64,000 nucleotides of DNA, from assembly GCA_028284905.1 (NCBI GenBank), contig JANQQU010000030.1:186001-250000 (forward strand), in the 5' to 3' direction. The notes below the pieces were generated by a model, which did no database searches, was not told where the DNA came from, and saw nothing but the letters and a program-made list of their open reading frames with translations. This stretch comes from Calditrichia bacterium (GTDB lineage Bacteria > Calditrichota > Calditrichia > RBG-13-44-9 > J075). A program made the translations under genes and the position numbers. Positions 14,428 through 33,742 of this stretch are shown piece after piece; the stretch's first letter is position 1, and every line of letters starts with the position of its first letter.

Positions 14428-17400
14428 TTATCTAATCAGCAGCATCTTCCGCGATTGCACAAACGCATTCGCCTTTAAGCGATAAAAATACATACCGGAA
14501 GCAAGATCCCGTCCGTCAAATTTGACTGAATAAAAACCGGGTGTATAACGCTCGTCTATCAACCTGGCGACACGCTGACCAAGCACGTTGAAAATCTCCA
14601 GCTGCACATTTGCCGCTTCCGGCAGGGCAAACTGGATGGTTGTTTCCGGATTGAACGGATTGGGGTAGTTTTGCTGTAAAGCGAACTGTTTGGGGATGCC
14701 ATCTTCTTCCCCGATACCGACCGGTAATGCGAAGGTGATATTGAGCGACCAGGCATCGAGACGCCCGCTGTTGCCAGTTTCCTTGTCGAAAATTTCCAGG
14801 ATCCACTCGCCTTCCGGATCAATGCCGGCGAACTGCGAGAGCGGGCGGTAGGGGCGGAAAATACCGCTGTAGGGCGGTGTGCCGCTGTTAATGGATATCT
14901 CGGCGGAATCGTCCAGCACGGTGTGAAGAAAATCCTGCCCGGTCGAACCAACTTCGTATATCAGAGTATCCCGAATGTCGTTATGCACGAGTGTTAAAAC
15001 GAGATCATCGACATTGCTGTGCAGGATGGTATCGATGCCGACAGTTACATTCCGAATAATGTAAGGGCTGCTGCTTGTCTTGGGAAAGTTAAAAAGGCTG
15101 ACAAGCAGGCTATCGCGGAGAATGGTACGGGGAAGAATCGATTTGCGAATACGGGTGCGGATACGGGCGATTTTTGTTTGAATAATTTGAAACGTTTCTT
15201 CCGGGGAAAAGCTTGATCCGGCATAGCCATTATCGACGGTTTGCACGCTCCAGTGATAGGTGCCGGGAAGAAGATTACGCTTTAGTAAAGCGGTGGTATC
15301 CGGGCCATTGTTTCCTGGTTGGGCAATCAACCGTTGACCATTGTCCATGGAAAGTGGGGAAATGATATCCGCAGCACCAGTTGTGGAGCCAACTCGCAGG
15401 TTATAACTCAAGCCATTTTCCGGGGTTTTGGCATCACTACCCGGTGACCAGTGGAAACTCACTGTTCCGCTGCTAACATTGGCATTGAGATTATTCGGTG
15501 CAGCCGGAGGCTGATTCGGTTCGGCAAGAAGGTTTTCCAGTAGCTGGGTAATCGGATCGCCACCACCGACGTTACCATTCACTAATAAATCAAGGTCGTT
15601 GTCATTATCACTGTCGCCCCAGGCGAGAGCACCGCCAACAGACTGGGGAAAGCGGGAATATACCCGGGTAAAACTGCTTGCCGGGAACTCATTTCGGTAA
15701 AATTGAACGAAGCCGTTTCCGGAGACGACCAGGTCGAGATCGCCATCACCATCGCCATCGGCCCAGCGGGCTTTCCCACTACCGCCATCGCTGGGGCTGG
15801 ACAAGCCAGTCTGCAAATCCGTGAACAACCAGCCTCCGTTGCCGTCCGGACCATCATTGCGAAAAATGTCTGTGAAGAAGACAAAATCGCCACCCGATTG
15901 AAACCAGGCAACGGCCAGATCTTCATCACCGTCAACATCAATATCACCGCCGGCAATGGTAAAAAAGCCACCGTCAATGCCGGAAAAAGGGAGGTTGTTC
16001 GCTAATTTGGAAAAAGTAATACCGCTGCCGACCGGGGCGAGATCATACTGCCAAATTTCCATATAAGTTGTATCGCCGATGCCCTGAAATCCAATGGCGA
16101 ATAACTCTTTCTCGCCATCGCCGGTAAAATCGATCCAGGCCATATCATTTATATTCGCTCCCGGAAAGGTGCCCTCGGTCAGCTCACTGAAGCGCCAGCC
16201 TCCATTGCCGTCCGGGCCATCATTGCGAAAGACGCCGAAGAAAAATATCGTCGGGCTGTTCATGACTGTGCCGGCAAGCGCCAGGTCAGGATCGCCATCC
16301 TGATCGATGTCGTTCCAATCCGCTTTGGGGAAATAGACGTTCGGTAAAGAAACGGAAAGTTCCGTGAACTGCCAACCGGGTCCGCCGGGTCCGTCGTTTC
16401 GGTAAAGGCGGGTATCGCCATCTAAACTTCCGGCATCGCCAACGAGGAGAAGATCGGGATCACCGTCGCCATCGATGTCCGTCCAGGCAGCAGTGCTGCG
16501 GAAGCGCGCCGGTAAAGTGGTGGCAATTTCCTGAAAGTCACTGTTCACGTTGATAAACAAACGCGTTTGCGCCTGAACATCATCATCCAGTCCTGTGAGG
16601 AAAATATCAAGATCGCCGTCGGCATCGACGTCTACCAGATCGCTTTCTCCGCCGTTGCCCGGTAGTCCTGCCTCGCTATCGAAAAAGGGAAGCTGGGGCG
16701 TGCTAAAGGTATCCTCTACGGAAAAAGCGGAAGCACCAAACTGGTTATCAATGGTTTGCACGCTCCAGTAGAATGTTTCTCCGGGACGAAGGTTTTCCAG
16801 GCGCTGACTTTGGTTATTCCCCAATCGCCCGGCGCCGCTGTTCAGAGGAGTGCCATCGAACAATGCCTCTCCGGAATAAACATCGTTCGTACCGGGGCTG
16901 CTGCCAACCCGCAGGTTATAGGTGAGGCCGTCGGTCGGCGTTTCCATGTCGCTACCATCGCTCCATTGAAGCAGGGGAAAAGTGTCGTTCACGGTAGATG
17001 TCAGCTGCAGCGGCGGCTGGGGAAGATTATTCGCTGGATCGATATGATTGCGGAGGAATTTGGTAATATAGGGCTCTCCCTGCCCTTGTCCGCCGGAAAG
17101 CAATAAATCGAGATCACCATCATTATCAAAATCAGCGAAGTTGCTGCTGCTGCCTCCGCCGGTGCCGGGCAAGGGAATACCAAAACTGGAAAAGCCGCCC
17201 CCGCTGCCGAACTCATTGCGAAAGAAACGGGTCGTGTCACTAGTGCCGCTGAGTACTAAATCCAGGTATCCGTCATGATCCGTATCGCCCCAGGAAACGT
17301 CGCCGCTTAAGGGAAAAGCAAGGCCGAGCAAATCATATTGTTGCGGGGTGAACACCCAGCCGTCGTTGCCATCCGGACCATCATTGAGATAGAGGTCGGA

Positions 17401-20400
17401 TATGAAATCAAAATTACCGGCAAAGTCTGCATACTGCAGATAAAGGTCGGGATCGCCGTCATTATCGGCATCCGCCCAGGCGCCGGAGAAGAAAGCCAGA
17501 TCGAGCTGAAAAATAGGAAAAACTGTCGGAACATAAGTCAGACGCAGAAAATTTACGCCAAAAACGCCATCATTGCGAAACAGCCCGGAAAAGCTGGAAT
17601 GGGGCAGCTGCGGATTGATGACCTGACCGGCGGTAAAAAGATCAAGATCGCCATCGCCGTCAAAGTCGATCCATTCGAGCATCTCCGCCTTGTAATTGTT
17701 GAAGCGGAATTGCAGCGGCACATTATTGATGTTGGAATAAAAACGCCAGCCGTCGCTGCCGTCCGGGCCGTCATTGCGGTAGATACGGGTGATATGATCG
17801 GAATCGCCGCTGAAACTTTCCCGACTGTCCCCATTGAGGATCAGATCGGGATCGCCGTCGTTGTCAAAATCGCCCCAATCGGCATGGCTGAAAAAGACAT
17901 CGTCAAGCTCGGCTGTCAACTCCGTAAAGATCCAGCCCGGCCCTCCCGGTCCATCGTTGCGGTAGAGTCGGGTGAAGGGCGTTAGCGTGGGGGAAACGCC
18001 GAAGTGACCGCTAAAGAGGAGATCAAGATCGTTGTCGCCGTCGATATCCGCCCAGGCGGCGTCGGCGCGGATCAGCGAGGGGAGATCTGTTGGTAAGGGG
18101 GTAAAAGTATCGTTGCCGTCATTACGATAAATTTCCATGATAAAGTTGGCTGATTCATCGAGGCCGACGCTGAAAAGGTCGAGGTCACCATCATTGTCGA
18201 TGTCGATTAAATCGTTTGTCCCCTGGATGCCGGTTAAAGGAATGCCGGTATCGCTAAACAAAAATGGCGGGGTAAAAAAGGTGGCAGTGTCGCTGCTGAC
18301 CTGCTCGCTGCCGTCATCGGCGAGTATGGCCCAGAAAAGCTGTTGCCCGGTGGAAAACGAGTTGGCGGGAACGCTGAAGCAATTTTCGGAAATGCCGGGA
18401 ATATCGATATCAGTATTATCAGCGAAAACACGCAGCCGGTAGGTCAACGGATCGCCATCGGGGTCAAAACCGTTGCTCCAGCAGAATGCGGTCGGTTGAT
18501 TCAGTACCGTTAATGTGTCGCCATCATCCGGTAACAGCAGTAGACTGGGCGGCAGCGGTGGATCGTTCACCGGGGTAACGGTGACGATAAATTCATCACG
18601 CGCAATTTGCCCCTGCCCGTTCATTGCTTCAACCTCGATGGTGCCGTTGCCAAAGAAATCTGCTGTTGCATCTACCGAAAGCGTACTGCCGTCGAGAATG
18701 GGGATGATCTCCGGATTGTCACTGGATACATCAAAGCTGAAAGACGTGCCTCCGGAATTGCTGAAGACCAGGTTGAGATCGGCACTAGCGAGGACCGGGC
18801 CGCTGTCTTCCGGGAATGTCAGATCGGGAATGGCGTTTACCACTGTTAGCGGGTTGAGTTCATCCGCGCCGATATCGGGGAAGAATGCATCGCGGGGATC
18901 GCCGTCGAAATCGCTGCTGACCTCTGCCAATGGCATGGCGAGGCTGTCCATCTCCCCTCCCTGCAAGTGAAGGTCGGTGCTGGAGATAAAGGGCGGATCG
19001 ATGGACACAGAATTGAGATCCATTCCACTGACGCTTTGCAGCCCGGCAATGGTCGATTGAAAGCTGCCGCCCCAGCCGGCTAAGGCGCCATTGCCGCTAA
19101 AGAGGTTGTTGTGGTCAGACATTGTCACCGCCGCGGTATTTTCCACCAGGTAGGCGGTGCTGTTCTCGGTTTTGAAGATATTGTTTATCACGCGAATGTC
19201 GCCGCCGGAACTACTGGTAATTCGCAAAGGATTGAGAAAGCCGGTGGTTGCGTTTACGCTGTTGTAAAAGATATCGCAGTTAGTGGTGCCATTCGTAATC
19301 TCGATACCCTTTGCGGTATTTCCGGTATTGTGGATGAAATTATTGGCGATCAAATGACGGCGCACAGAACCGGGACTGGCGTCCAGCCGCACCGCGATGC
19401 TGCGGATATCAAAATGGTTGCCGATAACATGTGCACCGTTGACGCGGCTAAGCAGAATACCATCGGAAAGAGAAGGATCAAGAAATTGGTTACCAATAAT
19501 ATCGATTGATGCGACAAAAGGGCCGAAGGTAAAGCCGGTAATTCGAATGGCGTCTCCACCAAAAGTTTGGCTGCTGGAAAAGCTGTTTTCAACGATACGC
19601 AAGCGATCGGGAAAATGAGCGTCGCTGTAAATCATATCCGATGTGCGGTTAATCAGGCGGCAGCGACGAATTTCCACATTTTCCGCCTTGCCGAGAAAGT
19701 CGATGAGACGATTATGGTTGATGCCGTTCGCTTGTAGGGTGAGTTGCTCCAGGCGGAGATAATCAGCACTGTTGAAACGGACAACGTAATTTCTGGTAAT
19801 ATCGTTGAGATTGGAATTGAGAATTACTGTTGTGGAATCACCGCTTTGCGAGCGGAAGGTAATAGTATTCGCTGCATCTGCACCGGGAATATCATGAATC
19901 ACCAACTGCTCGTTGTAAGTGCCGTCGAGTACTTCAAAAATGGTTGCCCCGCTAACGCCACGTAGTTCCAGATCATCGATCGCGTTTTGAAAGCTGTCAT
20001 AATCGCCGCCGCTGCCGATAGTGAAAGTGCCTGCCAACGGAGTGGCCGTGGGATCGGCAATGTATTCATCCGCGCCGATGTCCGGAGTGCTGCCATCGCG
20101 CGCTTCCCCATCGATGTCAGTGGTTATCTCGGTAAGGGGCGTACCGGCGCCATTGAGATAGGGGGAAGCGGTGTGCAGATCAGTTTCACTCAGGTAGTTG
20201 GGAAATACCGAGATGGAATTGAGGTCCATCCCGCTCGCTGCCTGTAAATCGCTGAGCTCGCCCTGAGCGCCATTCCAGACCGCCACCTGCGGCCCGGCCG
20301 CCCAGATGTTGTTGAAGTCAGATTCGATCACCGCGTTCGGGGCATTAACGTGATAGGCACGCGCCCTCCCGCTGTTCACCAGGCTGTTATTCAGCACGCG

Positions 20401-22518
20401 AATGCCGCTATTGTTGACATCGTCGATGCGCAATGCACTATTATCGGTGTTGGATTGGTCGGTGCAATGGATACTGTTATTCAGGATGTCCAGATCGACA
20501 GTGTTTTGTGCTACCCAAATCCCCCGGTTGATCACCCAGTTCACCCGGATAAAATTATTGGCGATGCGGTTGCGCCGGGCATTGCCGGAGTTGAAGCGCA
20601 GATTGAATCCAGAAGAACGGGTATCAATTTTATTGCCAATCGCATGAAAACCGTCGGTATTCTGGAAATGAATCCCTTCGTTGATACTGAAAATGGTGTT
20701 GCCACTCACCAATGGTGTGCGGATGTATGGACCAAAGACCAAACCAACCATTTGCACCCCGGCGGTATTGGCGAAAATATCGTTATCACGAATAATGACC
20801 TCATCGGGATGCTGCTCGTCACTCCAGATGGTGTAGGCATTGTCGGGATTGATCAGGTTGCAGTTTTGTATAATAACTGCCCGTGCCTGATCGAGAAATT
20901 TGACCACGGCACCGACGGTATTCGCCGGACTGGTATTGGCCAAAGTAAGATGCTCCAGGGTTATGAAATCGGCGCTGTTTAGAAGAATAGTGGCATTGCG
21001 ATCTGCGTTGCTGAAGAGGGTGATGCGCACATCGGCGGTATCGCCGCTCTGCGAACGGATGGTAACGCGGTTGAGCGAATCGGTTCCGGTGATGGAAGGG
21101 ATTTCCACCGCCTCGTTATAAATGCCCGGGAGCAAATTCAAAGTGAGCGGGCCATTAATGCCCCGTAATGCCACATCGTCAATCGCTGCGCCGATCGTTT
21201 CATAATTTCCCCCGCTGCCGATAGTCAAAGCACCGGAAAGCGGCGTCGCGGCCGGGGCAGAGGTGAATTCATCCGCGCCAATATCCGGGGTGCTGCCATC
21301 GCGGGCTTCGCCATCGAAGTCTGTGGTAACGGCAGCGAGCGGAGTTCCGGCGCCATCGAGATAGGGGGAAACAGTATGAAAATCAGTGTCTGATGTATAG
21401 TTGGGGAAAACGCTGATGGAGTTGCCATCGAATCCGGAGGCAGCCTGTAGACTGGCGAGGTCACTTTGTGTGCCGTTCCAGAGTGCGATCGCTACCCAGT
21501 CGGAATAAATATTGTTAAAATCCGAGGCAGTGATCGAAGCAGGATCTTCGATCTTGATTGCCGCCGACTGCCCGAAATTGGTGATGCTGTTGTTGAACAA
21601 TTGTATATCGCTGCAATTGGCTGTTACTTGCAGGCCGTAGCTGGTAAGATTACGAATCCCGAAAGCGCTGAGACTATTGTTGAAAACATCAATCGCACTG
21701 CTCAGATTAGTAATGTCCAGAGCGGCGGCCAGCAAGGTATTTACACTCAGGAAATTATTGCTAACCAGGGTGCGCCGGGAACTGCCGCTGCACTGGGTAA
21801 AGCGAAGCGAGCGGCTACGTGTTTCCACTTGATTACCAATTACGTGCGCGCCATCCACGCGGGTGAGCGTGATGCCATTGGAAAAACTGCCAGCGGGAAG
21901 AATATTTCCCGTAATTAGCGGCTGACTAATATCAGTGCTGCTAAACTGCCCTTCCAGGCGGATGCCGGTATTGCATGTTATCGTATTTTCCTCAATACTC
22001 AGATTAAAGATACCCTGACCGAAGGCGCGGATACCTTCACTGCTGCCGGAAATTATACAGCGGCGAATGGTATTATTGCTGGCACCGGTAGCTACTTCTA
22101 TTATTGCCTGGTTGACAATGCCATTTAGCAAGGTGATATCTTCCAGGTTCACAAAATCTGCCCCGTTCAAACGCACCACAAAGCTGCCGAGAGGAATGCT
22201 GTTAGCTTGCAGGGTGACATCAACTGCGCTGCCGCTTTGGGAACGAAAGGTTATCGTGTTTGTACTGCTGCTGCCGGTAATTGGGCCAAGATCCAACTGA
22301 TCATCGTAGATCCCATTAAGCACTTCGAAGATCACCGGTCCATCTACGCCTTCGCTGGCAAGATCTGCCGCTGCACTGCTGAAGTCGGCATAATCGCCAC
22401 CGCTCCCGATGGTAAAGGTGCCGGAAAGCGGCTGGGCAGAGATCGGGGAAGAAAATGCCCAAATAAGAAAAAGTGCGCTCAATGTTAGTAATCGTAAGGA
22501 ATGTTTAAACAAATTCAT
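14428..22518 (-). CDS. Giant secreted protein: three beta-helix units, two seven-bladed FG-GAP propellers, P-domain, type IX sorting domain
   Basis: The product has 2696 residues. After a signal peptide (1-28) come three copies of a parallel beta-helix unit of about 400 residues (starting near 31, 424 and 824), each opening with TIGSGGDY or similar and closing with a GADE motif. A cadherin/FN3-like section follows (about 1223-1420). Two blocks, about 1422-1810 and 1945-2325, each hold exactly seven calcium-binding motifs of the DxDxDGDxDL type (VCBS/FG-GAP), separated and followed by FN3-like domains with NLRVGS. Residues of about 2449-2599 match a proprotein-convertase P-domain (DDLVLTLVHND, GEWILEIFD). 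The end carries QNYPNPFNPETT and RKMLLIR. GGAGT precedes the ATG. This predicts a very large adhesive or carbohydrate-facing surface protein; no catalytic domain is visible. Confidence 0.92.
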   Translation of the reverse strand: MNLFKHSLRLLTLSALFLIWAFSSPISAQPLSGTFTIGSGGDYADFSSAAADLASEGVDGPVIFEVLNGIYDDQLDLGPITGSSSTNTITFRSQSGSAVDVTLQANSIPLGSFVVRLNGADFVNLEDITLLNGIVNQAIIEVATGASNNTIRRCIISGSSEGIRAFGQGIFNLSIEENTITCNTGIRLEGQFSSTDISQPLITGNILPAGSFSNGITLTRVDGAHVIGNQVETRSRSLRFTQCSGSSRRTLVSNNFLSVNTLLAAALDITNLSSAIDVFNNSLSAFGIRNLTSYGLQVTANCSDIQLFNNSITNFGQSAAIKIEDPASITASDFNNIYSDWVAIALWNGTQSDLASLQAASGFDGNSISVFPNYTSDTDFHTVSPYLDGAGTPLAAVTTDFDGEARDGSTPDIGADEFTSAPAATPLSGALTIGSGGNYETIGAAIDDVALRGINGPLTLNLLPGIYNEAVEIPSITGTDSLNRVTIRSQSGDTADVRITLFSNADRNATILLNSADFITLEHLTLANTSPANTVGAVVKFLDQARAVIIQNCNLINPDNAYTIWSDEQHPDEVIIRDNDIFANTAGVQMVGLVFGPYIRTPLVSGNTIFSINEGIHFQNTDGFHAIGNKIDTRSSGFNLRFNSGNARRNRIANNFIRVNWVINRGIWVAQNTVDLDILNNSIHCTDQSNTDNSALRIDDVNNSGIRVLNNSLVNSGRARAYHVNAPNAVIESDFNNIWAAGPQVAVWNGAQGELSDLQAASGMDLNSISVFPNYLSETDLHTASPYLNGAGTPLTEITTDIDGEARDGSTPDIGADEYIADPTATPLAGTFTIGSGGDYDSFQNAIDDLELRGVSGATIFEVLDGTYNEQLVIHDIPGADAANTITFRSQSGDSTTVILNSNLNDITRNYVVRFNSADYLRLEQLTLQANGINHNRLIDFLGKAENVEIRRCRLINRTSDMIYSDAHFPDRLRIVENSFSSSQTFGGDAIRITGFTFGPFVASIDIIGNQFLDPSLSDGILLSRVNGAHVIGNHFDIRSIAVRLDASPGSVRRHLIANNFIHNTGNTAKGIEITNGTTNCDIFYNSVNATTGFLNPLRITSSSGGDIRVINNIFKTENSTAYLVENTAAVTMSDHNNLFSGNGALAGWGGSFQSTIAGLQSVSGMDLNSVSIDPPFISSTDLHLQGGEMDSLAMPLAEVSSDFDGDPRDAFFPDIGADELNPLTVVNAIPDLTFPEDSGPVLASADLNLVFSNSGGTSFSFDVSSDNPEIIPILDGSTLSVDATADFFGNGTIEVEAMNGQGQIARDEFIVTVTPVNDPPLPPSLLLLPDDGDTLTVLNQPTAFCWSNGFDPDGDPLTYRLRVFADNTDIDIPGISENCFSVPANSFSTGQQLFWAILADDGSEQVSSDTATFFTPPFLFSDTGIPLTGIQGTNDLIDIDNDGDLDLFSVGLDESANFIMEIYRNDGNDTFTPLPTDLPSLIRADAAWADIDGDNDLDLLFSGHFGVSPTLTPFTRLYRNDGPGGPGWIFTELTAELDDVFFSHADWGDFDNDGDPDLILNGDSRESFSGDSDHITRIYRNDGPDGSDGWRFYSNINNVPLQFRFNNYKAEMLEWIDFDGDGDLDLFTAGQVINPQLPHSSFSGLFRNDGVFGVNFLRLTYVPTVFPIFQLDLAFFSGAWADADNDGDPDLYLQYADFAGNFDFISDLYLNDGPDGNDGWVFTPQQYDLLGLAFPLSGDVSWGDTDHDGYLDLVLSGTSDTTRFFRNEFGSGGGFSSFGIPLPGTGGGSSSNFADFDNDGDLDLLLSGGQGQGEPYITKFLRNHIDPANNLPQPPLQLTSTVNDTFPLLQWSDGSDMETPTDGLTYNLRVGSSPGTNDVYSGEALFDGTPLNSGAGRLGNNQSQRLENLRPGETFYWSVQTIDNQFGASAFSVEDTFSTPQLPFFDSEAGLPGNGGESDLVDVDADGDLDIFLTGLDDDVQAQTRLFINVNSDFQEIATTLPARFRSTAAWTDIDGDGDPDLLLVGDAGSLDGDTRLYRNDGPGGPGWQFTELSVSLPNVYFPKADWNDIDQDGDPDLALAGTVMNSPTIFFFGVFRNDGPDGNGGWRFSELTEGTFPGANINDMAWIDFTGDGEKELFAIGFQGIGDTTYMEIWQYDLAPVGSGITFSKLANNLPFSGIDGGFFTIAGGDIDVDGDEDLAVAWFQSGGDFVFFTDIFRNDGPDGNGGWLFTDLQTGLSSPSDGGSGKARWADGDGDGDLDLVVSGNGFVQFYRNEFPASSFTRVYSRFPQSVGGALAWGDSDNDNDLDLLVNGNVGGGDPITQLLENLLAEPNQPPAAPNNLNANVSSGTVSFHWSPGSDAKTPENGLSYNLRVGSTTGAADIISPLSMDNGQRLIAQPGNNGPDTTALLKRNLLPGTYHWSVQTVDNGYAGSSFSPEETFQIIQTKIARIRTRIRKSILPRTILRDSLLVSLFNFPKTSSSPYIIRNVTVGIDTILHSNVDDLVLTLVHNDIRDTLIYEVGSTGQDFLHTVLDDSAEISINSGTPPYSGIFRPYRPLSQFAGIDPEGEWILEIFDKETGNSGRLDAWSLNITFALPVGIGEEDGIPKQFALQQNYPNPFNPETTIQFALPEAANVQLEIFNVLGQRVARLIDERYTPGFYSVKFDGRDLASGMYFYRLKANAFVQSRKMLLIR

Positions 22519-22816: not shown

Positions 22817-25800
22817 CTACCGAATTAACAACATTTTACGAACTATTACAATACCTTCTGTCTCCAGACGATAAAGATAAACCCCGGAACTGAGTCCTTC
22901 GCCATCGAACTTCACCGAATGATTACCAGCCGGGTAGCGGCCATTCGCTAAAGTGACGATTGGCTGCCCCAAAACATTGTAAACAGTTAAAGCAATTTCT
23001 GCCGTTTTTGGCAAAGAGAAAGCGATAGTGGTTTCCGGATTAAAGGGATTAGGATAGTTCTGCGCCAGTTCGAATGCTTGCGGCAGATGCGCTGTTTGCT
23101 GCTCATCCTCATCGATGGCAGTCGGTTGATTAACGACCGTGATGGAGTCGTCAATAGTGCCGTTATTGCCTTCGTCGATAAGGATTTGCAAGGGCTGATT
23201 TTGCAGGTCATCCCAGTCCGGCTGGAGGATGTGACTGCTATTCGGAGGGAGAACGATATCGTTGTGGATGAATACCGGATTTTCCGTCTCGCTGACCAAT
23301 TCCAGGCGCAGATCGTAACTGCTGTCATCGCCGAAATTACGCAGTTTGTATTCACCGTCAGCAGCAAAATTCGTACTTAATGAATCGCCTTGCCCAACGG
23401 CCAGATTGGTGATATCAACAACGCGCTCCCGGCTTTCTTCCACCAGTATGGTTTGTAAATCTACGCGCTTGTTTCCGGCATCCGGGTTAGCGATGGAAAA
23501 GCTTTCTGTAAAACTCAGGCGGTCTTGCTGATTGCTCTCAGCATCGTTGCGGCTATATTGATAAATCATCGAATCGGCAACAACCGAAACATAGGTGCTG
23601 CTGTCCTGAAAATTATCGATTGTGATGTCGTATTCCCCGGCAGTCAACTCAAAGCCGGTGGGAGGGTGGGAATAGCCGGTGACCGGAATCAGCGGCAGGG
23701 CATCGGCGATGTTGCTCACTAAAGTGCTGTCAATATAGCCGACACTTTCTCCGGCAGTGTTGCGAATTTCTATGTTCATCCCGCTGGATTGACTGATTTC
23801 GATCAGCCCGTCAGCGCTACTCTTGAAATTGTTTAGACTGCCTTTCGTCTTAGCTTTCTCAATGTTGAAATCGTTGTAATAATCGCTCATCGGATTGCTG
23901 AGAAACAGCCCGGAACTGCCGCCCCAGTTGGGATAACGGCTGTAGCTCCAGATATCCACAGCGGTGTTGACCAGAAAACGGAGGGTGAAATCGTTCGGAG
24001 CATTATTGTCATAAACGTAAATCCAATAGCGGTCCGGGAGGGTTTCATGGGCTTCAAGCTTGTAGGGAACAACCGCATGGGCACCAGTATCGTGCGGGTC
24101 GTTGCTGTATAGCAGCAGGATGCGGTCGTCACGCTCATCAGCGATGAACATTGCCTTAAGATCTGCCACAGTTTGAGATGGCGGCTGCAACCAGTTTGCC
24201 CGCCTGTGTGCCTGATAACGTTCTCCGAACTGCCCGATAAAGAGTTGATTGATCGCCCGGCGTTCCTCATCTCCGGCGGTGAGTGAACGGAGATCATTAA
24301 AGTTATTGATAAATGGAAAAAGATTGTAGAACTCATTGCGGTTACCGAAGGCGATCATACTGGTGAGGGAAAAGCCGAAACAGGAGCCCTTCCAATTCCC
24401 CTTGATTTTTTTCCAGAACTGCAGCGCTGCCGGCGAGTAATGGGCCTCCGGAATATTTAAGTAGCATTCCAGCAGGCCGTAAGCATCGGCGAGCAGTGGC
24501 CAGTCCGGGAAATCCCTCGACCGGGCGTAGAGCGGGAAGTGGACAAAATCTGCGGGATAATTAATACCGGTGTTCGGATCGGTAGCAAGGGAGTAGTTGA
24601 ACTGCTGCCACCAGCTTTGCGGCCAGACGTTGGTCGCCCGATTGTCAAACTGCCAGGCATCTTGAGCGATGGAGAAAGGCTCGTAGTCTCCCCAAAAATC
24701 CACTTTAGTAAGAATATATGGTTTGATGCGGAAGGTATCGCTGACGGCTGAGACTGCCGGATTGCTAACATCTTCTAAGACAATGATACATTTGCGAGAC
24801 ATGGTATCTGGCAATGTCCAACTATATTGTCCGGCATCGGCCGGCCAGGATGCCTCTACCAGGGATAATGTTGCTGATGAATCGGTCGCATTCGCGCTAA
24901 AATAAATGGCGACAGAATCGACTTCATTGGCACTCCAGCGTACCGTAATGCTGCTTTCGGGAAGGTAGGTGAGTGGCGTTTGCGGTTCCAGTACCTGAAT
25001 AGCTGGTTGATTAAGATCTATCCGCCAGGCTTCGGTTTTCCCATCGCTATTAACACCATATCCGGCGAGGTATTTTAATTTACGGTTTTCCCCAACCATA
25101 TCCTGAGGGAAAAAGCTGCTCCAGCCGCTAACCGTATAGCCGTATTCGTCTTGCAAAGCGGAAAGGAGTTTCCGATTTCCCAGGTTGTCATCCCAGATGT
25201 AATATTCTGTTGGATTGTTTGTAAAAGAAAGGACGATTGATCCGTCACCGGAAACACGGAAGGCGGTGCTGTTGTTGCTTCCCGCTGGCGCAATGGATTG
25301 AGTACCGCTACCCTGGCGCCAGAGGAACGCTTGCTGAGTGCCACTGCCGGAACTCCGGCCAACGATAACCGATCCATCATCGGAGATATCTTCTGCCCGG
25401 CCAAAATTATCTCCGGCTAAATGATCGATAAGGAGTATATTACCATTGCCATCCCAACGGGTAAGATACTCAACAGAACCGTCATATGAGCTTCCGACAG
25501 TATACAAGCCATTGGCGGAAGCCGCCCGCATCGCACTGGAAATTCCATTCGAGACATGCGGCAGCGCGGTAATACCAGTGCCTTCTGTCCAGCGAAATAC
25601 CTGAGTACCGATAACCGTATCGGCGGAATTACCGAAAATGACCGATCCATCTGCAGAGACATCAATCGGGCCGGAAGTTCGGTTATCGCCGGCGAGGAAT
25701 CCCAATCCTTGCACACCGTTTTCTGCGGTGATCCGAATCGGTTCAAGATATAGGGAAGTATAAAAGCTGATTCCGACGACGACTGAGCCATCATCTGAGG

Positions 25801-26080
25801 TGGCAAATCCCAAACTGGGCAGCCCGGAGGTTAAGCGTCCCATAGCTTCCATGCCAGTGCCTTCCGTCCAACGAAATACTTGTTGGCCGGCACTGCTGCC
25901 ATCGTCGCTGGTGCCTACCACGACCTTGCCGTCTGCACTAATATCTTGGGCGATGCTTAAGGTACCGCTCCCCAGAAATCCCAGACCGGGAGGATTGTGT
26001 TGGGCTGTTAGCATAAAGGATATTAACTGGATCAGCAGTAAATACTGCCAACTTTTGAAATAATTTCTATAATTGGGCAT
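22817..26080 (-). CDS. Secreted papain-like cysteine peptidase candidate with HAF-type N-terminal repeats and type IX sorting domain
   Basis: The product has 1087 residues. A signal peptide is followed by about seven repeats of the type ISADGKVVVGTSDDG..FRWTEGTG (about 30-350), as in HAF/extracellular propeller repeats. An Ig/FN3-like segment precedes a 300-residue globular domain (about 470-790). In that domain Cys567 (GSCFGFS), His668 (TGAHAVVPYKLE) and Asp691-Asn692 (YVYDNNAP) have the order and local context of a papain-fold Cys-His-Asn/Asp triad. A further beta-rich part and the sorting domain (QNYPNPFNPETT, RKMLLIR) end the protein. GGAGA lies upstream of the ATG. The neighbouring gene at 26105 is a paralogue over its C-terminal two thirds. 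Peptidase activity is inferred from motifs; a transglutaminase-like or inactive papain fold is possible. Confidence 0.8.
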   Translation of the reverse strand: MPNYRNYFKSWQYLLLIQLISFMLTAQHNPPGLGFLGSGTLSIAQDISADGKVVVGTSDDGSSAGQQVFRWTEGTGMEAMGRLTSGLPSLGFATSDDGSVVVGISFYTSLYLEPIRITAENGVQGLGFLAGDNRTSGPIDVSADGSVIFGNSADTVIGTQVFRWTEGTGITALPHVSNGISSAMRAASANGLYTVGSSYDGSVEYLTRWDGNGNILLIDHLAGDNFGRAEDISDDGSVIVGRSSGSGTQQAFLWRQGSGTQSIAPAGSNNSTAFRVSGDGSIVLSFTNNPTEYYIWDDNLGNRKLLSALQDEYGYTVSGWSSFFPQDMVGENRKLKYLAGYGVNSDGKTEAWRIDLNQPAIQVLEPQTPLTYLPESSITVRWSANEVDSVAIYFSANATDSSATLSLVEASWPADAGQYSWTLPDTMSRKCIIVLEDVSNPAVSAVSDTFRIKPYILTKVDFWGDYEPFSIAQDAWQFDNRATNVWPQSWWQQFNYSLATDPNTGINYPADFVHFPLYARSRDFPDWPLLADAYGLLECYLNIPEAHYSPAALQFWKKIKGNWKGSCFGFSLTSMIAFGNRNEFYNLFPFINNFNDLRSLTAGDEERRAINQLFIGQFGERYQAHRRANWLQPPSQTVADLKAMFIADERDDRILLLYSNDPHDTGAHAVVPYKLEAHETLPDRYWIYVYDNNAPNDFTLRFLVNTAVDIWSYSRYPNWGGSSGLFLSNPMSDYYNDFNIEKAKTKGSLNNFKSSADGLIEISQSSGMNIEIRNTAGESVGYIDSTLVSNIADALPLIPVTGYSHPPTGFELTAGEYDITIDNFQDSSTYVSVVADSMIYQYSRNDAESNQQDRLSFTESFSIANPDAGNKRVDLQTILVEESRERVVDITNLAVGQGDSLSTNFAADGEYKLRNFGDDSSYDLRLELVSETENPVFIHNDIVLPPNSSHILQPDWDDLQNQPLQILIDEGNNGTIDDSITVVNQPTAIDEDEQQTAHLPQAFELAQNYPNPFNPETTIAFSLPKTAEIALTVYNVLGQPIVTLANGRYPAGNHSVKFDGEGLSSGVYLYRLETEGIVIVRKMLLIR

Positions 26081-26104
26081 TAAGAGATCTCCATTGAATA
26101 GAAT

Positions 26105-29050
26105 CTATCTGATTAAAAGCATCTTACGGGTTTTCACGAATCCTTCCCCTTGCAAACGGTAGAAGTAAATACCAGAAACCAGGTTCTCAGCGTTGAAGTC
26201 AATAGCGTGATGCCCGGCGGGATAAGTGCCCTCTGCCAGTACTGCTACCTGCTGCCCCAGACTATTAAATACTGCCAGGGTAATCGTCGTAGTTTTCGGT
26301 AGCGTAAAAGCGATGGAGGTTGTCGGATTAAATGGATTGGGGTAGTTCTGCGCCAGCGTGAATGCTTGCGGCAGATGTCCGGTCGCGGGATTGTTTTCAT
26401 TTATAGAAGTCGGTTGATTAACTACGGTGATGGAATCGTCGATAGTGCCGTCATTACCTTCGTCGATAAGGATTTGCAGGGACTGATTGAGGAGGTCTTC
26501 CCAATCCGGTTGGATGATGTGACTACTGTTTGGCGGCAACGTAATGTTATTGTGAATGAACAGCGCATCTTCGCTGTCGCTGACCAGCACCAGGCGCAGG
26601 TCGTAGCTGCTGTCATCGCCGAAATTGCGCAGTTGATATTCACCGTTCGCGCTGAAATTCGTGTTGAGGGAATCGTCCTGCCCAACAGTCAGGTTTTTAA
26701 TATCGACCAATCGTTCCCGATTTTCTTCTACCAAGATCGTCCGCAAGCTGACATTCTTGGATTGCCCATCGGGGTTTGCGAAAGAGAACCCTTCCCGGAA
26801 GCTGAGCTGATCTTGCTGGTTGCCGGCAGCATCATCGCGGTTGTAGTGATAGCGCAAAGAATCATCAAAGATGGAAAGATAAGTATTGCTATCCCGAAAG
26901 TTACTCAGGTTAATATCGTATTCTCCGGCCGGCAGTTCAAAGCCGGTTGGGGGATGGGGATAACCGGTAACCGGAATAAATGCCTGGGCGTCGCTTATTT
27001 CATTCTGCAAAACGCTGTCGATGTAGCTAATAATTTGCCCGGAGGAATTACGGATATTGATGTGAAGGCTATCCGATTGGTAGATCACCACCCGTCCGTT
27101 TTCAATTTTGTTTATGCTATTTTTTGAACCGTTTTTCCGGAAATCGAAATCCCCATAATAATCACTGATTGGATTACTGAGAAAAATGCCCCTGCTGCCG
27201 CCCCACCTGGGATAGCGGCTGTAACTCCAGATGTCTACTTCGGTGTTAACCAGGAAGCGCAAAGTGAAATTATTCGGGGCATTATTATCATAGACGTAAA
27301 TCCAGTAACGGTTTGGCAGGGTTTCATGTGCTTCCAACTTGTAAGGCAGAACGGCATGGGCACCGGTTTGATGTGGATCGTTGCTATAGAGTAGCAGAAA
27401 GCGCGGGTTCTCTTCCTCTTCTAAAAACATCTTCTTCAAGTCGGCAATCGTTTGGGAAGGGGGTTGACCACCAACGGTTCTTCTCTGCGTTTGGAAGCGC
27501 TTCCCGAATTGCGAGATAAAAAGGTGATTAATCGCCTTGCGCTCTTCGACATTCGCAGCAAGCGTGCGCAAATCGCTGAAATTGGGAATAAACGGAAACA
27601 TGCTAAAAAATTCTGTTTTATCGCTAAATGCAATCAAACTCGAAGCTGCAAAACCGAAGCAGGAACCGAGCCACTCGCCACCATGCACTTTCCAGAATAG
27701 CAATGCCTCCGGAGAATAACGCGCTTCGGGAACACTCAAGTAACAATCGTTCAAGCCGTAAACGTCGGTGAGTAATGGCCAGTCCGGAAAGTCGTTCGCC
27801 TCGGCATAGATCGGAAAAGTGGGAAATGCCTGCGGATAGCCGATGCCGGTATTGGGATCGGTAGCAGTGGCGTAGTCAAATTGCTGCCACCAGCTTTGCG
27901 GCCAAACACTGCTACTGTCGTTACGAAACTGCCAGGCATCCTGCGCGATGGAGAATGTCTCGTAATCGCCATTGGCATCCACACGGGTGAGAACATAAGG
28001 CTTGATGCCAAAGGTGTCGCTGTTGGCAACAACCGAGGGATCGTCGCTCGCCTCAATCGAAATCACACATTTGCGGGAAAGGGTATCCGGCAGGGTCCAG
28101 ATATACATCCCAGTTTCCGCCGGCCAGGCCGGCTCGATCGTGGTAAATGTCGCTAAACTATCCGTTGCATCGGCGCTGAAGTAAATTGAGACAGAATCGA
28201 CACGATCGGCCACCCATCGAATGGTATCGGCGCTGGCAGCCAGTCGGGTGGCTTTCCCCGATGTATTGATGATAGAAATGGAGGCATCCGGCACGGTATC
28301 CAGTTCGATTAAGTAATATTTCGGCAGGGTCCACCAGGTCTTTGTTTCCATCAGGTAGGTATAAAGATTGCCGGTAGTATCGCCGGTAACAGTGGCTTCC
28401 ACAATTTCGGATTCATTCAGACTAAGGGAATAGCTAGTGGGCTGAACAGTCAGCCAGGGAGCCGCGGGATTTTCCGTGATATCAACCAGGATGACCTGTC
28501 CGGGAACGTACGTGGTAAAACAACCCAGATTGGAAAATCCCTGCCAGGAAAGGGTGTCCAGATTTATGGTGGCCGATTGGCCGGGGTCTAACTGAAAACG
28601 AAGCGAGTCATCGATTGTCGGATGTTCGGTAACAGTTAATTGAATATTGACATCTGCCCAATTGCCGTTCATATCACGCAGAATGGTGGAATAAATACCC
28701 GGGGTGCTTGGCGCTGTAAAACTGCAGACCATCTGGACAATATCGTTACAGCCGGTGGTGGTAAAATCCAATGGAGAGACAGTCATCCAGGAGACTTGCG
28801 GCATCATCTGAAAATCGGCGGTTAATGTCCCACCATTCGACCAAAAATAGATCCATCCGGAGTAGGTTTGTCCGGGAAAGAGCTCCCAGGCATAGGAAAA
28901 GCCGCCGGATTTGGATTGGAGGTTTCCCTGATTCGCAATAAGAAAATCCGATGAACCAACAGCACCTTTGCCGGATTTCAGGCCGTTACCGTAAGCGACG
29001 AATGAAAAACCGATAAAGCAGAAAAATAGATACATTATCTTAAATTTCAT
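26105..29050 (-). CDS. Secreted papain-like cysteine peptidase candidate with BACON-like N-terminal domains and type IX sorting domain
   Basis: The product has 981 residues from the ATG at 29050 (AGGAGA upstream); a 16-codon longer frame has no ribosome binding site. After the signal peptide come two BACON/Ig-like domains (about 35-230, with VSWMTVSPLDF and APWLTVQPTSY), different from the HAF repeats of its neighbour. From about residue 245 onward it is closely similar to the gene at 22817, including Cys464 (GSCFGFA), His565 (TGAHAVLPYKLE) and Asp588-Asn589 (YVYDNNAPN). The Cys-His and His-Asp spacings (101 and 23) are identical in the two proteins. It ends QNYPNPFNPTTS and RKMLLIR. The genes are 24 bases apart, same strand, and likely co-transcribed. 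Substrate unknown; catalytic role is inferred from motifs only. Confidence 0.8.
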   Translation of the reverse strand: MKFKIMYLFFCFIGFSFVAYGNGLKSGKGAVGSSDFLIANQGNLQSKSGGFSYAWELFPGQTYSGWIYFWSNGGTLTADFQMMPQVSWMTVSPLDFTTTGCNDIVQMVCSFTAPSTPGIYSTILRDMNGNWADVNIQLTVTEHPTIDDSLRFQLDPGQSATINLDTLSWQGFSNLGCFTTYVPGQVILVDITENPAAPWLTVQPTSYSLSLNESEIVEATVTGDTTGNLYTYLMETKTWWTLPKYYLIELDTVPDASISIINTSGKATRLAASADTIRWVADRVDSVSIYFSADATDSLATFTTIEPAWPAETGMYIWTLPDTLSRKCVISIEASDDPSVVANSDTFGIKPYVLTRVDANGDYETFSIAQDAWQFRNDSSSVWPQSWWQQFDYATATDPNTGIGYPQAFPTFPIYAEANDFPDWPLLTDVYGLNDCYLSVPEARYSPEALLFWKVHGGEWLGSCFGFAASSLIAFSDKTEFFSMFPFIPNFSDLRTLAANVEERKAINHLFISQFGKRFQTQRRTVGGQPPSQTIADLKKMFLEEEENPRFLLLYSNDPHQTGAHAVLPYKLEAHETLPNRYWIYVYDNNAPNNFTLRFLVNTEVDIWSYSRYPRWGGSRGIFLSNPISDYYGDFDFRKNGSKNSINKIENGRVVIYQSDSLHINIRNSSGQIISYIDSVLQNEISDAQAFIPVTGYPHPPTGFELPAGEYDINLSNFRDSNTYLSIFDDSLRYHYNRDDAAGNQQDQLSFREGFSFANPDGQSKNVSLRTILVEENRERLVDIKNLTVGQDDSLNTNFSANGEYQLRNFGDDSSYDLRLVLVSDSEDALFIHNNITLPPNSSHIIQPDWEDLLNQSLQILIDEGNDGTIDDSITVVNQPTSINENNPATGHLPQAFTLAQNYPNPFNPTTSIAFTLPKTTTITLAVFNSLGQQVAVLAEGTYPAGHHAIDFNAENLVSGIYFYRLQGEGFVKTRKMLLIR

Positions 29051-29419
29051 TGTCTTCTCCTGACTATGATTTTCTACTGTGGTGATCGGTTCATACATCT
29101 ATAGCTGATTTATAGTAGTTTTCAGGAGAAATACTTTCAATCACGTAAACGCGCCATTTTTGCTTTACAACGACTCTATCAGGTGAGCAAGTTGTTGTAA
29201 AGCCACGGATTTACACGGATGCACACGGATTTTATGAACAACCCTTTTTCACAACGTTTCACCCTTCGACAGGCTCAGGATGAATGGATGTAAGTTTAAT
29301 ATTTATATATAGAAAAAAGGCGTGGTTTTGTTCGTTAGGATATTTAGAAATCCGTGAAAATCGGTGTTTATCTGTGGCAAAAACTGAGATAAAGAAAATT
29401 ATGGAAAAAAGGTGGAGGG
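29051..29419. other. Spacer of 369 bases: hairpin plus CCACGGAT-family element
   Basis: No gene is visible. A perfect 10-bp inverted repeat, GCTTTACAAC at 29162-29171 and GTTGTAAAGC at 29194-29203, touches the left end of the CCACGGAT-family element. The segment 29051-29160 should hold the promoter of the peptidase pair, but I see no clear promoter hexamers. Confidence 0.5.
29202..29378. repeat. CCACGGAT-family interspersed inverted repeat, copy 2
   Basis: GCCACGGATTTACACGGAT at the left (from 29202) and an inverse arm ending in TTTATCTGTGGC at 29378. The interior contains CACCCTTCGACAGGCTCAGG at about 29260-29280, the inverse of the motif inside copy 1. Confidence 0.85.
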
Positions 29420-30067
29420 TTATAGCAAGCGTTCTTTCAATGCTTTAGCGACGGCACTGCTACGTGTATGCACTTCCAGTTTGCTGTAAATGTTACGGAT
29501 GTGGCTATCCACAGTGTGCTGGCTTAGGTTGATCTGGGCGGCAATCTGTTTTTTGCTCAGACCATCTACTAACAGGCGAAGGATTTCCTGTTCCCGGTTG
29601 GTAAGATCATAATCGCCGGGCGGCGCGGCCATTTCCTGAAAAAGATTGAGCACCCGCCGGGCAATATGGGTGTTCATTGCAGCGCCTCCCTGTAAAACCA
29701 GTTCAATCGACTCGATAATGTCCTCCGGCGGGGCATCTTTCAGGAGATAGCCACTGGCGCCAGCACAGACGGCTTTGAAAATGTTGTCATCATCATCATG
29801 AATGGTGAGGATGATGATGCGGGCGTCCGGGCATAGGCGTTTCAGATGCGGAATACACTGCACGCCATTCATGCCGGGCAAACCAATGTCTAAAAGAACG
29901 ATATCCGGCGCAAGGCCGCGTATTTCGATCGCAGAGAGACCATCTTCGGCAGAGCTGAAAGCATTTTCACAGCTTAAACGCTCGTGGCTGTTAATAACCC
30001 GGGTGAGGGTTTTTCGGAAGATGGCATGGTCTTCGATTAAAAGGATGTCGGTTTTTTCGGCGGTCAT
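29420..30067 (-). CDS. NarL/LuxR-family response regulator
   Basis: The product has 215 residues from the ATG at 30067 (AAGGA upstream). The 30-codon longer frame reads through a CCACGGAT-family repeat and is rejected. The receiver domain (about 6-125) has the acidic pair Glu12-Asp13, phospho-acceptor Asp60 (IVLLDIGLPGMNG), Thr in IILTIHDD and the KDAPPED lysine. The LuxR HTH (about 148-210) reads LTNREQEILRLLVDGLS then HTVDSHIRNIYSKLEV. Its likely partner is the HisKA_3-type kinase encoded just upstream at 30467-33742, since NarL-type regulators pair with that kinase class. The target genes are unknown; the adjacent secreted peptidase pair downstream is a reasonable guess. Confidence 0.93.
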   Translation of the reverse strand: MTAEKTDILLIEDHAIFRKTLTRVINSHERLSCENAFSSAEDGLSAIEIRGLAPDIVLLDIGLPGMNGVQCIPHLKRLCPDARIIILTIHDDDDNIFKAVCAGASGYLLKDAPPEDIIESIELVLQGGAAMNTHIARRVLNLFQEMAAPPGDYDLTNREQEILRLLVDGLSKKQIAAQINLSQHTVDSHIRNIYSKLEVHTRSSAVAKALKERLL

Positions 30068-30100
30068 ACATTTTCCTTGTTTTGTAAGCTGCTTGTTAAG

Positions 30101-30184
30101 GCCACGGATGACACTGATTGACACGGATGTAACAGCATTGCCCCCAATAAATTTCATCCGTGAAAATCAGTGTTCATCAGTGGC
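30101..30184. repeat. CCACGGAT-family interspersed inverted repeat, copy 3
   Basis: The left arm from 30101 starts GCCACGGATGACACTGATT and the right arm from about 30155 ends CATCAGTGGC. It is the shortest-loop copy in the window, and lies 34 bases before the regulator start codon. Confidence 0.85.
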
Positions 30185-30466: not shown

Positions 30467-33400
30467 TCACGTGATTTTCAAAGAAAAATGGAGCTGGGCA
30501 CCTTTGCCAGGCGAACTGTCGATGCGAATCTTGCCGCCTATTTGCTCCGCCCGATAACGCATATTTTGTAGCCCGTTCCCACTGCTATCGCTTGCCGGAG
30601 CGAATCCTATACCATCATCCTGAATACTTACAGTAAGCAGATCGCCTTTTGCAGCAACTGTAATATTTACCTGCTTAGCCCGGGCGTGGCGAATAATATT
30701 ATTGAGGATCTCCTTGAAGATGAGATAGATGTTTCGTTTCGCTTCCGGCGGTAGCTTTTGTGCTGTTTCCCCGACAGCGTCGTTAAAATCGTAATCGATC
30801 TGCTGGAGCATCGTTCGTGCCGTTTCTTTCATTCGGGTGATCAGGTCACCAATGCTGTCCGACTTCGGATTGATAAACCAGACGATGTCACGAATGGCTT
30901 CGGTAGAATCCCGCGCGGCCCGGTTGACATCCTGAAAGGCCTCCTGAACATCGGCGGAAAGGTCGGGGGTTTTCTGAAGCAGATTGCTAATCAGGGCAAT
31001 ACTACTGAGGTTGCTGCCGATTTCATCATGGAGATCGCTGGCAATACGCATGCGGATTTGCTGCTTTTCCGTTTCCTGCGCTGCCTGCAACGCTTTCGTG
31101 CGGGATTCTGCTGCTTCTGCCCGTAGCTGTGCCTCTCGTAAATCTGCCGCTTCCCGGGCCTGACGAATTTTCTCGGCGGTTTCCCGTTCCTGCTTACGGC
31201 GATCGTATTGTCGATACGCGAGGAGGGCGGCCCCCAGCAGGATAACGTAGAGCAGATAAGCCCAATTACTTCGCCAAAATGGAGGAGTGATGATCAGCTT
31301 CAGGCTGATCCCCGTTTCATTCCAAACCCCAGCACTGTTTGCAGCCTTTACCCGCAGTCGGTAACTCCCGGGACTGAGCCCGGTAAAACTGATCTGATGG
31401 CGATTGCCGAGATCAATCCATTCATTATGCAGGCCTTCCAGGATGTAGGCATAACGGTTTTGTTCCGGTCGGGTAAAATCCAGCGCTGCAAAGGAAATAG
31501 AAAAAATATGATCCTGATGGCTAAGGCGAATGGTTTCGGTTTCACTAATTGCTGAAGATAAAATATTCTTTTCGCCAACTGCTACCGTTTGATTGAAGAT
31601 GGCCAATTCGGTGAAAATAACCGTTGGAGGTTTGGGGCTTTCCTCTGAAGAGAATGTGCGAGGATCAAACAGGGTTATACCATTCGGGGTGCCAAACCAG
31701 AGTTCGCCGCTTTGCGACTTCATACCAGCCCAGGGATTAAATTCTGCATTGCTGATGCCATCGCGTTGATCATAAATCCGGGCGGATTCATTCTTCGGAT
31801 CGAAACGGGTGAGGCCTTTGGCGGTGGCCAGCCAGAGTATGTTCTCGTCATCCGCCACCATACTGGTGATGCTGTTGTCGGAAAGGCCATCAGCGCTGCT
31901 GAAGGAGCGAAACGATTCCTCGCCGGGGTCAAACCGAATCAGTCCACCGCCTTCGCTGCCCAGCCAGAGTATTGTCCGGTTAGAATCGGCGGGATGCGGC
32001 AGGGCGAGAATATCCCCAAGTGCATTGGCGCTAACCGATTGCGGATCATTGGGATCATGCATCCATTGTCGGGAAGTGCCGCTGCCCCGATCCAGTAAAT
32101 GAAGGCCACTGCGTAAAGTCGTCACCCAAAAATTACCCTGCCGGTCTTCGTACATATCGCTGATGTAGCGATCCTGCATCACTGCTGAAGCATCGGATAT
32201 ACGAGCACGAATGACCTGGCCGGCATCGCGATCGAAGGTCGCCAATCCTTTCGCTGTGCCGATCCAGAGCTGCCCCGAGCGATCTTCGTAAATCGCACTG
32301 GTAAGATTGTGGGGAAGGCTGGAGGGATGATCGGGATGATGCCGCCAATGGTCGAAAGTGTCGTTGCTACGATTGAGACGATTCAATCCTCCGGTGAAGG
32401 TGCCGATCCAAAGGTCATGATAAGAATCTTCATAAATGGCGATAACACTATTGTCACCCAGGCTTTTCGGATTTTTCGGATCATGGAGGTATTGGGTTAC
32501 TTCTCCAGTGGCGGGATCGAAAGCATTTAACCCGCCGATGGTGCCAATCCATATCACCCCGGTGCGATCCTGGTAAATTGGCCAGATGTAATTGCTGCTT
32601 AATGTGGCGTTGGTTAGCTGCTGCCAGTTACGGAAGCGGGAAGTTTCCGGCAGTATCTTTTCCAGGCCGTTAATTGTCCCCACCCAGGTGATGCCGCCGT
32701 TGTCCTGAATAATAGCGTTGGTGGCGTAGGATGTCTGCACATTCGCCGGGGCTGTTTCCTGAAGCTTAATTGGGCGAAGATTATTCTTTTCGAGAAGAAA
32801 AAGTCCCTGGGAAAGCGTCCCCACCCACAACAGGTTTTCGGTATGGTCGGCAATAGCGGTTACCCGATTGGTTTCATAGCCATCGTTTGCAGCGGGCGCT
32901 GGCTGCCAGAGATGTGATGAACCACCGGCAGGATCATAACTGACCAGTCCGAAAGGAGTGCCTAAAAATAGATTACCAGAACTATTACCGGCAATGACGC
33001 CGACAGCCCGGCCGCTGCGATTACCGGCGGGCTCGGGGAAATTTTGTTTGCGGAAAGCGTTTTCTTCCGGGAGAAATCTGTCCAGCCCGGCATCGCTGCC
33101 GATCCAAAGACGATTTTCTGCATCAACATAAAGGGCGCGGACATAATCGTTGCTAAGACTGTTGGTATTATCCGCTGAATGGCGATAATGGGAGAGTTGC
33201 CCGGCCTCGGGTTGCAGCGCATAAAGTCCGCTGCCCATAGTCGCAATCCAAAGTGTGCCTTCAGCATCCTCCGTGATGGCAGAGACGCCGGTACTGCTCA
33301 GTCTGCTTTCGGCAAGGGAGTCGCTGGTCCAGGATTGAAAACTTTCCAGCGACGGATGATAGAGGTGCAGACCGCCGGAAACAGTACCAACCCAAATCTG

Positions 33401-33742
33401 TCCACTGTTGTTCTGATACAGCGTTTTGATGCGATTATCCCGTAAGCTATTCGGCCTTTTACTAAATAATTTAAAGCTATGGCCATCGTAGCGCTGCAAG
33501 CCTTCTTCTGTCCCCAGCCAAAGGAAACCTCGCTGATCCTGCAAAATGTTACGAATATTGTTATTTGCCAGGCCATTTTCGGTTGTTAAGCGTTCTTTGG
33601 AAATCTGGATCAGTTTCGTCGATTGCTGCGCAAAAAGGCCTAGCGAAATTAATGAATAGCAAAATACCAGGAGGCAACGGAGTGAATGGCCACGATGAAA
33701 AAAAGTATTGTCAGTTTGATGCTTCTGCTGAGGGTTTTTCAT
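30467..33742 (-). CDS. Propeller-type sensor histidine kinase (HisKA_3 class)
   Basis: The product has 1091 residues. A signal peptide or anchor (about 20-40) is followed by two sets of regulator-propeller repeats (about 50-730, recurring as RGFLWLGTEEGLQRYD and similar), a Y_Y_Y domain (about 770-830), one membrane helix (about 838-860) and a charged coiled coil. HisKA_3 follows with His905 in IASDLHDEIGSNLSS, then a HATPase with EILNNIIRHA and DDGIGF. It is therefore a membrane sensor with an extracytoplasmic propeller that phosphorylates a NarL-type regulator, very likely the one encoded at 29420-30067. There is no receiver or DNA-binding domain of its own, unlike the kinase at 4134. The ligand is not evident. 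Confidence 0.95.
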   Translation of the reverse strand: MKNPQQKHQTDNTFFHRGHSLRCLLVFCYSLISLGLFAQQSTKLIQISKERLTTENGLANNNIRNILQDQRGFLWLGTEEGLQRYDGHSFKLFSKRPNSLRDNRIKTLYQNNSGQIWVGTVSGGLHLYHPSLESFQSWTSDSLAESRLSSTGVSAITEDAEGTLWIATMGSGLYALQPEAGQLSHYRHSADNTNSLSNDYVRALYVDAENRLWIGSDAGLDRFLPEENAFRKQNFPEPAGNRSGRAVGVIAGNSSGNLFLGTPFGLVSYDPAGGSSHLWQPAPAANDGYETNRVTAIADHTENLLWVGTLSQGLFLLEKNNLRPIKLQETAPANVQTSYATNAIIQDNGGITWVGTINGLEKILPETSRFRNWQQLTNATLSSNYIWPIYQDRTGVIWIGTIGGLNAFDPATGEVTQYLHDPKNPKSLGDNSVIAIYEDSYHDLWIGTFTGGLNRLNRSNDTFDHWRHHPDHPSSLPHNLTSAIYEDRSGQLWIGTAKGLATFDRDAGQVIRARISDASAVMQDRYISDMYEDRQGNFWVTTLRSGLHLLDRGSGTSRQWMHDPNDPQSVSANALGDILALPHPADSNRTILWLGSEGGGLIRFDPGEESFRSFSSADGLSDNSITSMVADDENILWLATAKGLTRFDPKNESARIYDQRDGISNAEFNPWAGMKSQSGELWFGTPNGITLFDPRTFSSEESPKPPTVIFTELAIFNQTVAVGEKNILSSAISETETIRLSHQDHIFSISFAALDFTRPEQNRYAYILEGLHNEWIDLGNRHQISFTGLSPGSYRLRVKAANSAGVWNETGISLKLIITPPFWRSNWAYLLYVILLGAALLAYRQYDRRKQERETAEKIRQAREAADLREAQLRAEAAESRTKALQAAQETEKQQIRMRIASDLHDEIGSNLSSIALISNLLQKTPDLSADVQEAFQDVNRAARDSTEAIRDIVWFINPKSDSIGDLITRMKETARTMLQQIDYDFNDAVGETAQKLPPEAKRNIYLIFKEILNNIIRHARAKQVNITVAAKGDLLTVSIQDDGIGFAPASDSSGNGLQNMRYRAEQIGGKIRIDSSPGKGAQLHFSLKIT

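Follow-up and report, generated by a model that had tools for sequence, protein, structure and literature searches.

Two adjacent genes of a Calditrichia bacterium encode T9SS-tailed proteins with a candidate papain/C39-like cysteine peptidase domain of an unnamed family

Two neighbouring genes in a 64,000-nucleotide stretch of a Calditrichia bacterium genome (contig JANQQU010000030.1; the whole stretch is called the window below) encode secreted proteins, P1 and P2, that share a domain with a conserved Cys-His-Asp triad. The proteins are read as papain/C39-like cysteine peptidases exported by the type IX secretion system (T9SS), belonging to a new family that is named in neither Pfam nor NCBIfam and has distant C39-like kin (clan CA); this reading is given a probability of roughly two in three. 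The family is real and unnamed, and it belongs within a known superfamily rather than constituting a new kind of system. An original prediction, made from the letters of the DNA, had described the pair as secreted papain-like cysteine peptidase candidates; its facts are right, and its interpretation probably is as well.

Gene layout, domains and export

P1 and P2 are encoded in the same direction, P1 downstream of P2 and separated from it by 24 bp, and are probably co-transcribed. Their features are as follows (window positions, strand, description and basis):

26105..29098 (-), P2, a secreted protein of 997 aa with the Cys domain (ORF, hydrophobic N-terminus, RBS ahead of ATG 29050, T9SS tail)
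27155..28006 (-), P2 predicted catalytic domain, residues 365-648 (71% identical to P1)
27659..27661 (-), P2 Cys480 (alignment and codon check)
27356..27358 (-), P2 His581 (alignment and codon check)
27287..27289 (-), P2 Asp604 (alignment and codon check)
26120..26344 (-), P2 T9SS type A sorting tail (PF18962 and TIGR04183)
22817..26080 (-), P1, a secreted protein of 1087 aa with the Cys domain (ORF, RBS, signal sequence, T9SS tail)
25013..25999 (-), HAF-repeat region that forms the N-terminal head of P1 (TIGR02913 of NCBIfam, E 5e-16, three repeats)
24725..24961 (-), P1 Ig-like linker domain (weak PF10342 Kre9_KNH match)
23876..24727 (-), P1 predicted catalytic domain, residues 452-735 (family alignments)
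24641..24643 (-), P1 Asn480, near-invariant, in the segment DxWxFxN (65/66)
24380..24382 (-), P1 Cys567, proposed nucleophile (66/67 members; N-terminus of a predicted helix)
24077..24079 (-), P1 His668, proposed general base (67/67 members; start of a predicted strand)
24008..24010 (-), P1 Asp691, proposed third triad residue (Asp 64, Asn 2, Glu 1 of 67; just past the next predicted strand)
23081..23848 (-), P1 beta-rich domain C-terminal to the catalytic domain, present in most relatives (alignments; homolog L012 predicted all-beta there)
22832..23056 (-), P1 T9SS type A sorting tail (PF18962 and TIGR04183)

Codon 17 of the P2 reading frame is the ATG at 29050, and because a strong AGGAG site precedes it, the true start is likely to be there, in agreement with the start chosen originally. 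The catalytic domain of the first protein had been placed at residues 470-790, which is about right. The Kre9_KNH match of the Ig-like domain was better in P2 than in P1 (E 8e-5, just under the cut-off).

Three features were used to recognise T9SS cargo, and both proteins were found to have them: a hydrophobic N-terminal signal sequence (judged by eye), a type A tail (PF18962, E 2e-9 and 7e-10, and TIGR04183) and a SprA translocon (TIGR04189) encoded in the same genome. The signal peptides and sorting domains previously reported for both proteins were thereby recovered. P1 and P2 would leave the cell via Sec and then the type IX system, and the beta domain and tail may give the enzyme support and direct it to the cell surface. 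Gingipains (C25) are likewise cysteine peptidases exported by the T9SS and have a caspase-like fold in which His comes before Cys; P1 and P2 gave no Pfam or NCBIfam match to gingipains or to other T9SS-exported cysteine peptidase families.

A triad conserved across an unnamed family

The triad consists of Cys567, His668 and Asp691 in P1 and of Cys480, His581 and Asp604 in P2, in the order originally proposed and with spacings of 101 and 23 residues in both proteins, as verified by alignment and codon check. Since P1 and P2 are paralogs with 71% identity over the domain, their equal spacing is weak evidence alone; in the other six genomic copies the spacings are 97-99 and 21-23. The evidence against chance is instead the conservation throughout a wide family. 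In an alignment of 67 domains, Cys is retained in 66, His in all 67 and Asp in 64 (Asn in two and Glu in one, both chemically sensible replacements), so that the family-wide Cys, His and Asn/Asp expected of the papain-like superfamily are present in 66/67, 67/67 and 64 Asp plus 2 Asn of 67. Two columns are invariant (Gly569 and His668), and Cys567 (66), Gly565 (66), Asn480 (65/66) and Asp691 (64) are nearly so. The catalytic domain is under purifying selection, with a dN/dS of about 0.1 where dS was measurable (not saturated).

Wide family members without the Cys had been named in advance as evidence against a catalytic role, and one of the 67 was found (L052, in which Gly replaces Cys); the prediction withstands this comparison. 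The Gly-bearing member, together with the existence of inactive papain-like homologs (PMC10318531), would suit a papain-like fold that had lost catalysis and now serves surface proteins for binding or structure. This reading is nevertheless very unlikely, as the members, at an overall identity of 15-40%, keep Cys, His and Asp almost without exception, which would be difficult to account for if the domain were not catalytic.

The segment ahead of the Cys in P1 (residues 452-564, positions 24389-24727) contains Asn480, Trp527 and Trp556, which are nearly as conserved as the triad. Five distant cousins (15-21% identical) retain C-x-G, (G/A)H-x-V and Y/A-D-P-N motifs. These sequences (L020, L055, L056, L057 and L089), with their C-x-G, H-x-V and DPN motifs, have different architectures, are also without a Pfam model and form a wider unlisted branch.

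The original remark that no named family with this combination was known was borne out: a Pfam scan of all 67 members gave scattered chance matches only and no peptidase family, and the domain went unrecognised in searches of NCBIfam, PADLOC, PHROGs and PDB sequences. HopQ-type PDB matches obtained with a small profile (E about 0.01, helical stretch only) disappeared when the 67-member profile was used. The domain is described nowhere in the literature searched. A survey of papain-like families (PMC10318531) includes newly classified ones; overlap with any of these that has a Pfam model is unlikely, because the Pfam scan of the 67 members was negative.

Eight copies of the domain were found in the genome (8.55 Mb, 93 contigs): the two of the window, a tandem of three on contig 20, a tandem of two on contig 36 and a single copy on contig 12. 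Relatives occur in Calditrichia, Zixibacteria, Ignavibacteria and Cloacimonadota. The window's own phylum has them in 4 of 40 genomes (its own genome counted), the phylum of a Zixibacteriota genome in 17 of 133, the class to which an Ignavibacteria genome belongs in 25 of 294 and the phylum of a Cloacimonadota genome in 4 of 125. A search of viral contigs and plasmids gave no matches to the domain.

Predicted fold and proposed relation to C39-like peptidases

According to a published survey, the Cys of papain-like enzymes invariably begins the core helix; four to five strands come next, of which the second bears the His and the third usually the last residue of the triad (PMC10318531). In this superfamily the strands make up an antiparallel sheet. 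Two AlphaFold models were built from different query sequences with alignments of seven sequences, and both were of low confidence (mean pLDDT 52 for the P1 domain and 58 for homolog L012 with its beta domain). In both low-confidence models the Cys starts a helix (residues 116-128 with C116, and 101-109 with C101), the His begins a strand and the Asp comes directly behind the following strand. The pLDDT of the Cys helix is under 40 for P1 and near 40 for L012; the strand carrying H217 and the one that precedes D240 fall in a block with pLDDT 57-89, within a low-confidence model. This predicted placing corresponds to the canonical papain-like order (PMC10318531). Foldseek searches with both models gave no significant PDB match, and a papain fold is for that reason only inferred. 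The structural check that had been proposed is answered in part: the three residues have a papain-like placing in the low-confidence models, and the mean pLDDT is low and no significant PDB match was obtained. That Foldseek did not confirm a papain fold would agree with an unrelated one, in which Cys, His and Asp have another role (for example, metal binding or structural) and the papain order is coincidental; the placing on predicted secondary structure and the C39 register described below make this a long shot.

The core profile was compared by hhalign with three families, Peptidase_C39_2 (30 sequences), Transglut_core (30) and Peptidase_C1 (6, a shallow profile); a preliminary C39 profile of 8 mixed sequences lacked depth and was replaced by the one of 30. 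The nearest profile was Peptidase_C39_2 (P 6.3e-4 across the His and Asp motifs), and in an extended alignment Cys fell on Cys, with all three residues in register. None of 150 block shuffles reached the observed score (best shuffle 25.0 vs 27.5). The match is modest, suggestive of a relationship rather than proof of it. Peptidase_C1 was at noise with its shallow six-sequence profile, and no PF00112 match was present in the genome; Transglut_core was also at noise (P 0.5, score below most shuffles), with no PF01841 match. With papain (Peptidase_C1, PF00112) the family shares the order Cys-His-Asp/Asn, two members having Asn third, and with Transglut_core (PF01841) the Cys-His-Asp order, in a profile comparison no better than shuffles. 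Residue order, predicted secondary-structure placing and the fit to a C39-like profile together support the papain-like reading originally put forward.

With the C39-like single-domain peptidases of Peptidase_C39_2 (PF13529), P1 and P2 share the Cys, a GH-V-V-type His motif and a DP/DN-type Asp motif, in the same order and register. They differ in being multi-domain T9SS cargo without a Pfam match, in having about 100 extra conserved residues ahead of the Cys and a longer Cys-His stretch, and in lacking a Gln at Cys-6. This Gln is the oxyanion-hole residue of C39 and papain (Gln26 of CvaB and Gln19 of papain; PMC3335142); it was absent from the 67-sequence alignment, where the position holds Gly, Arg, Asp, Thr or other residues. 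Bacteriocin exporters such as CvaB contain a peptidase domain, Peptidase C39 (PF03412), that also has a Cys-His-Asp triad with Asp and not Asn as the third residue (PMC3335142), whereas P1 and P2 are not part of an ABC transporter, lack the Gln and gave no sequence match to it.

The missing Gln also bears on what reaction would be catalysed. The papain superfamily includes many amidases, deamidases, transglutaminases and acyltransferases with the same triad, and the cluster rich in deamidases and transglutaminases mostly lacks the element bearing the oxyanion-hole residue (PMC10318531), so that P1 and P2 could be non-peptidases of this kind, with proteins, surface glycans or the peptides of peptidoglycan as substrates. 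This is unlikely, as the nearest profile was that of C39-like peptidases and not Transglut_core (P 0.5), and no member had an NlpC/P60 or CHAP Pfam match. In the preferred reading, that of exported cysteine peptidases, the catalytic body would cut amide bonds: Cys567 would be the nucleophile, His668 the base and Asp691 the residue that orients the His. We infer both catalysis by this domain and proteolysis in place of other amide chemistry.

N-terminal heads and neighbouring regulators

When the tandem copies were compared per 100 residues, the sequences from the Ig-like and catalytic domains onward were 58-94% identical, and the N-terminal heads 21-59%. The head of P1 is the HAF-repeat region, a probable beta-propeller, and that of P2 is another module. 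The comparison suggests heads that are exchanged or fast-diverging on a constrained enzyme body. Either head may bind a target or surface. Across the family, the domain is flanked by HAF, FG-GAP, SBBP, PQQ, LamG-like or beta-helix heads and by T9SS or dockerin tails; in L012 and L052 (from the phylum of the Zixibacteriota genome), SBBP repeats precede the Cys domain and a dockerin replaces the T9SS tail.

The family lacks the Gln at Cys-6 and instead has a near-invariant Asn/Trp segment upstream of the Cys. A more far-reaching proposal, possible yet doubtful, is that this is a new clan CA family in which the upstream segment DxWxFxN ... WPxSWW (Asn480, Trp527 and Trp556) completes the active site instead of that Gln, and in which one catalytic body has been fitted to changing heads (HAF, FG-GAP, SBBP, PQQ, LamG-like and beta-helix) by recombination and fast divergence.

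Two genes upstream of P2 encode a putative regulatory pair:

29420..30157 (-), LuxR-type response regulator next to P2 on its upstream side (sequence; same relative place at the contig-20 locus and in L013)
30467..33742 (-), sensor histidine kinase of the propeller type (Reg_prop/Y_Y_Y-like), encoded upstream of the regulator (sequence; peptidase genes at the contig-20 locus and in L013 also have a homolog upstream)

A sensor kinase and LuxR regulator lie upstream of peptidase genes at three loci from two genera: in the window, on contig 20 (L009/L213) and, in another genus, in L013. At the contig-20 locus one other secreted protein is encoded between the pair and the peptidase genes. An 828-kb sample of the genome contained one other sensor/regulator pair (L254), after which comes a protein whose end is T9SS-like. 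This count suggests about ten pairs per genome as a rough estimate; by this rough estimate, a pair beside two of the four peptidase loci is unlikely to be due to chance. The adjoining pair probably controls expression of the peptidase genes. On its other side, P1 adjoins a 2696-aa T9SS protein (14428-22518) with FG-GAP repeats and repeated parallel-helix-like units, and proteins partly similar to it are encoded beside the peptidase genes of contig 20 and beside those of genome G032.

If active, P1, P2 and their relatives would form a group of exported peptidases that is missing from the family lists and spread over four lineages that are little cultured. In these lineages extracellular protein breakdown has mostly been inferred from known families, and Pfam-based surveys do not see the present genes. 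The body and head pattern of the tandem copies, together with the adjoining sensor pair, offers a testable model for possible changes in substrate choice.
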